A stretch of 37,419 nt of DNA from an uncultured Methylotenera sp. (GTDB lineage: Bacteria > Pseudomonadota > Gammaproteobacteria > Burkholderiales > Methylophilaceae), in the NCBI GenBank assembly GCA_902168195.1, contig CABHOJ010000127.1:1-37419 (forward strand). The letters run 5' to 3'. The notes under the pieces were generated by a model. It was not told the DNA's origin. It worked only from the letters and a program-made list of their open reading frames with translations, and did no database searches. The position numbers and the translations under genes were made by a program. Within the stretch, counting starts at the first letter, position 1. Each line of letters opens with the position of its first letter. Positions 27,616-29,111 of the stretch are shown here, piece by piece.

Positions 27616-28833
27616 TTAATGCAACTGATGCAATTCCAAGCGTCGCAGTTTGGGCGCTAGCTTTGCCGTGGCGCCAACCACGAGTAAGGTCATGGCCCCG
27701 CCGAAGATCACCGAGGGGATCAAGCCCATTAGCCTCGCGGTGACGCCCGATTCGAAGGCGCCCAGTTCATTGGAGGAGCCGATGAAGATACCGTTGATGG
27801 CGGAGACGCGACCGCGCATATGGTCCGGGGTGGCGAGTTGCATGATGGTGGTTCTTAGCACTACCGACACGCCGTCAAAGATCCCCGAGAGCAACAGCAG
27901 GAAACCCGCGATCCAGAAATCGACGCTCAAGGCGAAGCCGATGATGGAGAGCCCGAAGCCGGCGACGGCGAGCAACAGCCAGCGGCCTGCATGCAGGTTG
28001 ATCGGAAACCGCGCGAGGATCAGGCCGGTGACGACTGCGCCGACCGCGGGCGCTGCACGCAAGATGCCCAAGCCCTCGGGACCGTAGTGGAACACATCCT
28101 GCACGAAGGCGGGCAGCATGGCGACCGCCCCGCCGAACAGCACGGCGAACATGTCCAGGCATTGTGCGCCCAGCACGATCTGGTTGTTGTAGACGAAACG
28201 CAGACCCTCTCCGATGCTGGCGAACACCGGCGCACGTTGCGCCGGCGGTGGCTCGTTCACTTTGAGCAACAGCATGGCCACGCTCGCGCCCACACAGAGT
28301 GCCATGGCGACCGCGTACGCCGCAGTGGTGCTGGCGAAGCCGACCAGCAGGCCGCCCAAGGCCGGGCCGACGACAAGGCCGATCTGGAAGATGGAGCTGC
28401 CGAGACCGGCTGCGCGGGCATATTGCTTGCGCGGCAGAATCAACGCGAATAGCGCGTTATAACTCGGGCCGATGAAGGCGCGCGCGATGCCGGTGACGGC
28501 GATGGAGCCATAGATCCACCAGGTGGGATCGCCACCCAGCCAATGCAGCGAGACGGCGAACAGGATGAAGGCGTTGAGCAACAGCAGCAGCGCAGCGAAC
28601 ACGCCGAATAGCCGCCGCGAGTGGTGATCGACCGCATAACCCGCGAACAGGGCCGTACAGAAATAGGGGATGACTTCGGCCAGTCCGACCAGCCCGAGCG
28701 CCAAGGGGTCACGCGTGATCTCGTAGATGTGCCAGCCGACGACCACGGCCATGATCTGGTAAGCGAGAACGATCTGGACACGGAACGTCAGGAGCTGCAG
28801 GAAGGCGGCATTGAGGTAAGAAGGTAAACGCAT
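27616..28833 (-). CDS. MFS transporter (EntS-like exporter)
   Basis: This 405-residue inner-membrane protein has about 12 transmembrane helices and the loop-2/3 motif GYAVDHHSRR typical of MFS exporters. The N-terminus FRVQIVLAYQIMAVVVGWHIYE and the overall pattern match the MFS_3/EntS-type subfamily, which exports siderophores or drugs. The substrate is unknown: no siderophore genes are present. It is followed on the same strand by the DUF4186 gene. The segment upstream of its start holds the candidate structured RNA on the opposite strand. Confidence 0.9.
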   Translation of the reverse strand: MRLPSYLNAAFLQLLTFRVQIVLAYQIMAVVVGWHIYEITRDPLALGLVGLAEVIPYFCTALFAGYAVDHHSRRLFGVFAALLLLLNAFILFAVSLHWLGGDPTWWIYGSIAVTGIARAFIGPSYNALFALILPRKQYARAAGLGSSIFQIGLVVGPALGGLLVGFASTTAAYAVAMALCVGASVAMLLLKVNEPPPAQRAPVFASIGEGLRFVYNNQIVLGAQCLDMFAVLFGGAVAMLPAFVQDVFHYGPEGLGILRAAPAVGAVVTGLILARFPINLHAGRWLLLAVAGFGLSIIGFALSVDFWIAGFLLLLSGIFDGVSVVLRTTIMQLATPDHMRGRVSAINGIFIGSSNELGAFESGVTARLMGLIPSVIFGGAMTLLVVGATAKLAPKLRRLELHQLH

Positions 28834-28969
28834 GGCAATGGGGTGGCTGGACTTCTGTGGCTGGCCGTAATTGATGTTCGAGTCAGGCCAGTGGGCCCTA
28901 AAGGTGACGATAGACCACTAGGATAGCAGACGGGGCAATGCCGGTGCAGGTGCATCCCGCGGCGACAGG

Positions 28970-28975
28970 TATAAT
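28970..28975 (+). promoter_or_regulatory. Perfect -10 box in front of the structured RNA
   Basis: TATAAT occurs 4-7 bp before the base of a long hairpin-closed element. The predicted transcript start (28981-28983) would be at the first G of the closing stem. The -35 is poor (no TTGACA at 16-18 bp). Confidence 0.5.
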
Positions 28976-28977
28976 AC

Positions 28978-29085
28978 GGGGGTTAGTGCAGTGAATAAGG
29001 CAGTAAGCTCGGTATGACGAGCCGATGAGTCACCCTTGACCTAGTGGGGTTCTGCCGAGATGGATTAGGCGCACTAACCCCTCTT
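28978..29085 (+). ncRNA. Candidate structured small RNA, family unknown
   Basis: The ends pair perfectly over 11 bp: GGGGTTAGTGC (28979-28989) with GCACTAACCCC (29071-29081). Inside, GGCAG (28999-29003) pairs with CTGCC (29052-29056), enclosing two hairpins, GCTCG/CGAGC (29007-29011 with 29018-29022) and ACCC/GGGT (29032-29035 with 29047-29050). A pyrimidine tail TCTTTCTCC follows. With the TATAAT at 28970 this looks like a free-standing ~105-nt RNA. It lacks the SRP, tRNA, tmRNA, 6S and RNase P hallmarks. It lies between divergent MFS and a minus-strand 71-codon gene. The minus strand could fold the same way, but no promoter was seen there. Confidence 0.55.
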
Positions 29086-29111
29086 TCTCCTCCTGCACCA
29101 TAGGCTATCGG

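Follow-up and report, generated by a model that had tools for sequence, protein, structure and literature searches.

The closest described counterpart of the element studied here is the Methylophilales-1 RNA (Rfam RF03011), which Rfam types as an sRNA gene without giving a function. It reportedly originates from a 2017 survey by Weinberg and colleagues, and our limited literature search found no papers on it by name. Stable RNAs 1 and 2 of phage T4, encoded in its tRNA cluster, are small phage RNAs of unclear role that also lie beside tRNAs. ROOL RNAs, like GOLLD RNAs, are several hundred nucleotides long or more. The available part of a recent study describes ROOL and GOLLD as phage or prophage RNAs that often lie near tRNA islands and that form RNA cages, many GOLLD RNAs exceeding 800 nt (PMC12286853).

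The window, i.e., the whole 37,419-nucleotide stretch of DNA that was analyzed (contig CABHOJ010000127.1 of an uncultured Methylotenera sp.), contains a member of the RF03011 family. The earlier note had left the structured element at 28970-29085 unassigned and had proposed a search against Rfam covariance models. That search, when run, returned RF03011 on the + strand with 91.1 bits against a curated cut-off of 79.9 (E 3.8e-19), covering positions 1-103 of 103, the full length of the model, so the element has an assignment after all. This is the sole Rfam match above its cut-off within the window, and the likeness to RF03011 extends to the strand, the taxon, and the stand-alone position of the gene. 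A search of its own genome, a 1.68-Mb assembly that is 77% complete, found a single copy. The family and its occurrence in the same taxon were already known; the corrected P4 hairpin, the pseudoknot, and the relatives beyond the family are described below.

The strand and the reality of the RNA are settled by this homology on the + strand. Folding energy was rejected as proof of either, since both strands of the 116-nt stretch are about equally stable relative to shuffles: the + strand folds at -42.9 kcal/mol (z -2.5, with 3 of 200 dinucleotide shuffles as good), and the minus strand reaches z -2.6 and beats 198 of 200. The features are as follows.

27616..28833, - strand: divergent MFS transporter gene (PF07690, PF05977), context outside the element
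28970..28975, + strand: -10 promoter box TATAAT, read from the sequence; a TARAAT-like consensus recurs at this spacing in 84 loci with distinct upstream DNA
28980..29085, + strand: Methylophilales-1 RNA gene (RF03011 match at 28981-29079; our models R2 and R3 at 28980-29085)
28979..28989, + strand: P1 5' arm, 11 pairs with 29071-29081
28990..28998, + strand: 5' strand of internal loop J1/2, AGTGAATAA; GAAT is identical in 60/60 rows of family alignment A1, 58 of which were chosen by a pattern fixing GAAT
28999..29003, + strand: P2 5' arm GGCAG, pairs with 29052-29056
29007..29022, + strand: P3 hairpin, whose sequence and length vary; 29007-29011 pairs with 29018-29022
29032..29050, + strand: P4 hairpin in the corrected register, 29032-29036 with 29046-29050
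29040..29045, + strand: pseudoknot 5' strand CCTAGT, in the P4 loop, pairs with 29064-29069
29052..29056, + strand: P2 3' arm CTGCC, pairs with 28999-29003
29057..29063, + strand: internal loop 3' strand, mostly GANATRG in the family
29064..29069, + strand: pseudoknot 3' strand ATTAGG, pairs with 29040-29045
29071..29081, + strand: P1 3' arm, pairs with 28979-28989
29080..29090, + strand: pyrimidine-rich 3' tail, probable transcript 3' end judging from the 84-locus flank profile

The TATAAT, the 11-bp terminal stem, and the GGCAG/CTGCC stem named by the earlier note are read directly at 28970-29085 on the + strand, and the terminal stem (P1) consists of 11 uninterrupted Watson-Crick pairs (28979-28989 with 29071-29081). 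The two hairpins that it placed inside the inner stem also hold, the second one with pairing other than that of Rfam's model line. It had further proposed looking for covarying stem bases in homologs. Such homologs exist, and their stems covary in alignment A1, which comprises 60 family sequences thinned at 96.5% core identity and includes two added by hand (L102 and L133, missed by the pattern behind our earlier counts). Compensatory changes are found in 7 of the 9 modelled P1 pairs (88.9% of cells paired, the outermost modelled pair being unpaired in 39/60 relatives), in 5/5 pairs of P3, and in 3/5 pairs of the corrected P4 (100% of cells paired). The 6-bp pseudoknot between the P4 loop and the 3' side of the internal loop is likewise paired in 100% of cells, with both-side changes in 3/6 pairs. 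Taken as a whole, the corrected fold pairs 95.8% of cells, 20 of its 30 pairs are changed on both sides, and none of 500 shuffles was as good on any of five measures.

The register of hairpin 2 in the RF03011 model line differs from this fold. We rejected that hairpin, of whose 11 pairs none shows a compensatory change (91.1% paired in A1); the shifted P4 and the pseudoknot fit the alignment instead. This fault concerns the 60 aligned sequences rather than the window sequence specifically, and the Rfam structure was judged from the model line printed by cmscan, which cannot display pseudoknots. P1, P2, and P3 are common to both folds, and Rfam's whole structure likewise beats nearly all shuffles. 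Unprompted, RNAalifold draws the pseudoknot helix from A1, in place of P2 and P4. Moreover, among 76 distinct cores, the top two mutual information values belong to one P4 pair and one pseudoknot pair, the ranking being confined to column pairs with standard pairs in at least 90% of rows. The window P4 carries a C-G pair at a position where most relatives show A-U or G-C.

The earlier note's idea of a stand-alone RNA whose own -10 box would start transcription at the foot of the terminal stem is supported, on the + strand, by the conservation of this box over 84 loci with distinct upstream DNA (L102 and L133 were missed by the pattern that selected them). Counted from window position 28982, where P1 begins and which serves as the reference for the spacing, the profile at -12 to -7 reads T 73%, A 80%, A 51%, A 89%, A 73%, T 75%. 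No -35 consensus is visible in the 84-locus upstream profile, and the promoter may rely on an extended -10 box or on an activator. In the same loci, G is enriched just upstream of the -10 box (window 28920-28975). Past the conserved part of P1, the DNA is C-rich and then T-rich and G-poor over about 10 bases, with T at 37-64% at positions equivalent to 29081-29088 versus about 30% further on, and G depleted. This profile fits a transcript that would end just after P1. In one genus (g19), four loci (L128, L130, L131, and L132) carry a second copy of the P1 3' arm (GCACCCGCC) some 15-25 nt downstream, mostly including the bases that precede this arm, and this partial duplication could compete for P1.

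Within the Methylophilaceae, the RF03011 model matched 110 of 187 genomes, one copy each; 92 of these 110 exceed the cut-off, and 17/24 genera are represented. Among good-quality genomes, 82/119 match. Named Methylotenera, Methylobacillus, and Methylovorus contigs carry the RNA pattern. In a sample of 100 genomes that includes the element's own, all 38 matches fall among the 60 genomes of its own family, with none in the 40 that represent the rest of the order; the 14 named control genomes likewise gave no match. The RNA seems dispensable in the family, since 77/187 genomes, including 37/119 good ones, gave no match to the RF03011 model. To explain these absences as a filter artefact was rejected, as 28 of the 77 negative genomes, rescanned with our model R1 at E up to 1 in a run without a positive control, gave no match. 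Loss of the RNA may accompany genome reduction, since it is absent from all eight genomes sampled from two small-genome genera (g13 and g15, about 1.3-1.4 Mb), while other small genomes retain it. In one genome, R1 detected a second copy that the RF03011 counts do not include (L166:1254-1359, CAIYLB010000093.1), about 5.8 kb from the intact one, its 3' half intact and its 5' half degenerate.

The same core is present in 34 viral contigs with a model match, recovered by patterns and by new models. A pattern made from the 3' half of the RNA found 70 stretches in species genomes and four viral contigs, to which further patterns added 4, 4, and then 22. Several pairs are nearly identical in element or surroundings (L215/L216, L232/L234, L279/L285, and L283/L286), so the 34 loci are not all independent. 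With R1, three of the first four contigs scored 67-69 bits and one 22.7. The 22 last-found contigs, which played no part in building R3, scored 32-57 bits with it (E 4e-6 or better). Against RF03011 in Rfam release 15, three loci (L215, L216, and L217) reach 44-52 bits, under the cut-off, two others (L231 and L233) are likewise sub-cut-off, and the element goes unseen in eight further viral loci. Because the search patterns prescribe some positions in P2 and in the internal loop, invariance there is partly by construction; the last pattern leaves free the P4 loop and, except for its first base, the pseudoknot 3' strand. Proteins sampled at 11 viral loci belonged to phage families at nine and to none at two; these families include exonuclease, DNA polymerase, terminase, CI-like repressor, primase/helicase, RecT, and Cas4-type exonuclease. 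We retained L234, the weakest viral match (E 0.07 with R1), because its core nearly equals that of L232. L235 scores with R2 and R3, yet it was excluded from the viral pseudoknot and tRNA counts because its loop misfits the pseudoknot register.

Two further viral patterns found nothing, and contigs L219-L224 (six of ten) gave no model match. With one phage element as the blastn query, we obtained one match at E 5, plasmid matches at E 1-4, and no named phage record. Queried together with its tRNA, the plasmid copy hit 23 phage records; in the 20 listed, the matching part is the tRNA. The neighborhoods of four viral loci matched elsewhere or not at all, with no named phage carrying the element. 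R3 found no copy in the examined stretches of Stenotrophomonas phage Summit and Burkholderia phage Magia.

Relatives also occur in other bacteria. In a sample of 399 genomes of the order, R2 matched 11, seven of them from the element's own family, outside which the RNA is rare on chromosomes, with three further genomes in this sample besides a rejected match in G521. Matches outside the Methylophilaceae include G279 (E 2e-8) and G079 (7e-8), and G233 has two copies, one of which was included in the model. The G079 copy is carried by pSTJ2, a 102,623-bp plasmid of Sulfuricystis multivorans, a few kilobases from conjugation genes; the plasmid is typed as non-mobilizable. Since E-values are per genome, weak lone matches among hundreds of genomes are not significant. 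Four candidates were set aside: L143 and L144 (G521 and G310) and L249 (G677) were rejected by eye, one half of the core alone fitting in each, and a Bergeyella contig (L172) is a pattern match only. In a sample of 369 genomes of the class, R2 matched G696 and G906 besides the own genome and the rejected G677. R3, built with G696 and G906, gave an extra match there in G808 (L276), scored without inspection. G906 (E 0.02) is believed because of relatives in its own family, where R2, at E up to 0.05, matches 12/53 genomes (two of them twice) and 9/18 genera. By eye, the loci of that family mostly have no clear P1; in a 15-row alignment of them with G696 (A4), CUUAACAC is common to all rows, between P3 and P4. 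The 13 loci (L263-L275) form a separate branch of the RNA in another family of the class, with CUUAACAC as a conserved joining segment, and match no Rfam family at E up to 1.

Comparison across branches provides strong evidence, drawn from the alignments, that all of them would adopt one RNA fold with a common core. In a 35-member alignment built with a model containing no pseudoknot, the six pseudoknot pairs are formed in 33, 35, 35, 35, 35, and 33 of 35 members, one pair being G-C in 13/35 and G-U in the rest. Across the 27 viral pseudoknots that are distinct, 103 of the 108 cells in the outer 4 bp are paired, whereas 2000 rounds of partner swapping averaged 70.9 and never exceeded 83; mismatches within the six inner pairs occur at L232, L234, L277, L281, L291, and L294. 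Constancy is highest in the internal loop, P2, the P4 loop flanks, and the inner pseudoknot pairs, while P3, much of P1, and the outer pseudoknot vary with pairing kept. P1 and the segment between P3 and P4 are not common to all branches.

We put the probability at roughly 60% that the element is a stand-alone RNA, about 105 nt long, that acts in trans and uses its core to bind a conserved partner, perhaps one involved in tRNA or translation biology. Transcription would start at its own -10 box, at the foot of P1, and the position of this start suggests that the 5' end of the RNA is sealed in P1. The order of the predicted fold would be P1, the internal loop, P2, the P3 and P4 hairpins, and the 6-bp pseudoknot from the P4 loop to the 3' side of the internal loop. 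Trans action is suggested by the single copy, the own promoter box, and the free-standing position. The rigid core (internal loop, P2, P4, and pseudoknot) would offer conserved bases for recognition by a partner that is probably a protein or ribonucleoprotein common to hosts and phages. Indeed, because loop and core bases are constant while P3, P1, and the outer pseudoknot vary and yet pair, the conservation pattern suggests a shape presenting a few bases to a partner more than a seed that pairs with mRNA. Phages carry the core too, and the partner may therefore be a host component that phages need or must block.

This pattern also bears on the reading that survives best among the alternatives, a base-pairing regulatory sRNA with an exposed segment that pairs with mRNAs, perhaps via Hfq. 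The size, the own promoter box, the intergenic site, and the pyrimidine-rich 3' flank would all suit such an sRNA. However, the conserved positions are taken up by helices, the pseudoknot, and a closed internal loop instead of forming a free tail, and the length-variable part is the P3 hairpin, which makes a pairing sRNA unlikely.

The genes beside some mobile copies give a hint about the partner. Seven of the 33 viral loci counted (L216 having been dropped as a duplicate of L215) have a tRNA or tmRNA within 300 nt, whereas random placement in the same loci yields a mean of 1.27 and a maximum of 5 in 5000 trials. Nine of the 33 have any tRNA or tmRNA, and the nearest lies on the strand of the element in 9/9. 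At L261, a tRNA-Ile begins 6 nt past the six-pair pseudoknot; this locus is only 1.5 kb long, which inflates its own chance expectation. ARAGORN places tRNA-Ala genes a few nucleotides from the element at L283 and L286; these genes are short and may reflect one event or doubtful tRNAs. Directly after the element, an 86.5-kb viral contig carries a permuted tmRNA (L218:3598-3832; tag ANDDTYAPLKAAA; RF04321 124 bits, RF01850 119 bits), whose Rfam match the element overlaps by two bases; a second, overlapping tmRNA called there by ARAGORN was taken as spurious. In three copies from bacteria or a plasmid, the model match begins 22-28 nt after a tRNA-Asp, and a fourth copy has a decayed tRNA 29 nt ahead of it. 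About 1.5 kb from the tRNA-Asp and RNA unit of G233 is a HEARO RNA (L255:7631-7867). By contrast, a scan of 37 Methylophilaceae loci found no tRNA closer than 1 kb to the RNA, none turned up at the 13 loci of the second chromosomal branch, and the window itself has no tRNA or tmRNA. The translation link thus draws on a minority of mobile copies, since these chromosomal loci have no nearby tRNA and 26/33 viral loci have no tRNA or tmRNA within 300 nt; the adjoining, same-strand tRNA and tmRNA genes of the others favor a partner in tRNA maturation or translation.

In these respects the mobile copies resemble ROOL and GOLLD, which the available part of the source presents as structured phage or prophage RNAs of unexplained function, often near tRNA genes (PMC12286853). 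The window element differs from them in that its core spans about 80-105 nt and that it is also a chromosomal gene; no Rfam match to ROOL or GOLLD was found in the stretch 28970-29085 or in the scanned loci. Unlike the permuted tmRNA that it adjoins, the element lacks a tRNA-like domain and a tag frame, and no Rfam tmRNA family matches the window.

The same proximity would suit a self-cleaving ribozyme with which phages free a neighboring tRNA or tmRNA and which some hosts keep. Its compact pseudoknotted core, its many invariant bases, its presence in phages, and the few nucleotides that separate it from tRNA-Ile (L261), tRNA-Ala (L283 and L286), and the permuted tmRNA (L218) agree with such a role. 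However, an Rfam search of the element's stretch at E up to 10 returned no ribozyme family, the -10 box in Methylophilaceae would start the RNA at P1 and leave no 5' leader to cleave, and the tRNAs lie on either side of the element, with no constant cleavage site evident. We consider cleavage improbable.

The neighboring genes, sampled by a script making crude ORF picks at 37 family loci, show little constancy. The earlier note had suggested a connection with the divergent MFS gene; this gene is the divergent neighbor at just 20/37 loci, which indicates a shared neighborhood rather than an obligate partner. It had also pointed to the nearby c-di-GMP gene, a link not upheld by a first downstream ORF that varies and is antiparallel at 15/37 loci. 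Recurring neighbors in the sample include a 2OG-Fe(II) oxygenase, a Sua5 protein, an HhH-GPD DNA glycosylase, and a fasciclin-domain protein. Since the neighbors vary and some are antiparallel, the neighborhood appears partly inherited, with no constant cis-regulated gene. A cis-acting leader of a downstream gene, such as a riboswitch or antitermination element, would be in keeping with the loci that have a same-strand ORF starting within 50 nt and with the phage copies that sit between same-strand ORFs. However, the kind of downstream gene differs from locus to locus, whereas a leader would be expected to precede one constant kind on its own strand, and the 15 antiparallel ORFs among 37 make this reading improbable. 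Finally, conservation at the DNA level, as for the end of a mobile element or a palindrome that binds protein, is highly unlikely despite the relatives on phages and a plasmid, since the helices covary pair by pair, a covarying pseudoknot makes no sense for double-stranded DNA, and the promoter box lies at a fixed distance.

Returning to the trans-acting RNA, Methylophilales-1 would be one chromosomal branch of a wider RNA family found in phages, at least one plasmid, and other bacteria. A limited search that included the accessible part of PMC8632094 found no description of this wider family. More tentatively, and against the odds as we see them, Methylophilales-1 might be a branch of an unrecognized phage and plasmid RNA superfamily, defined by the GGCAR/YUGCC stem, a short hairpin, and a covarying loop-to-internal-loop pseudoknot, that phages and plasmids would carry, partly beside tRNA or tmRNA genes, to act on the host translation or tRNA machinery and of which at least two bacterial families would have adopted a chromosomal copy.

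The corrected fold and its pseudoknot supply mutations to test and a better model for finding members. An orphan RNA named for a single order shares its core with phage, plasmid, and other bacterial RNAs, which makes its function testable in phages and by partner pull-down.
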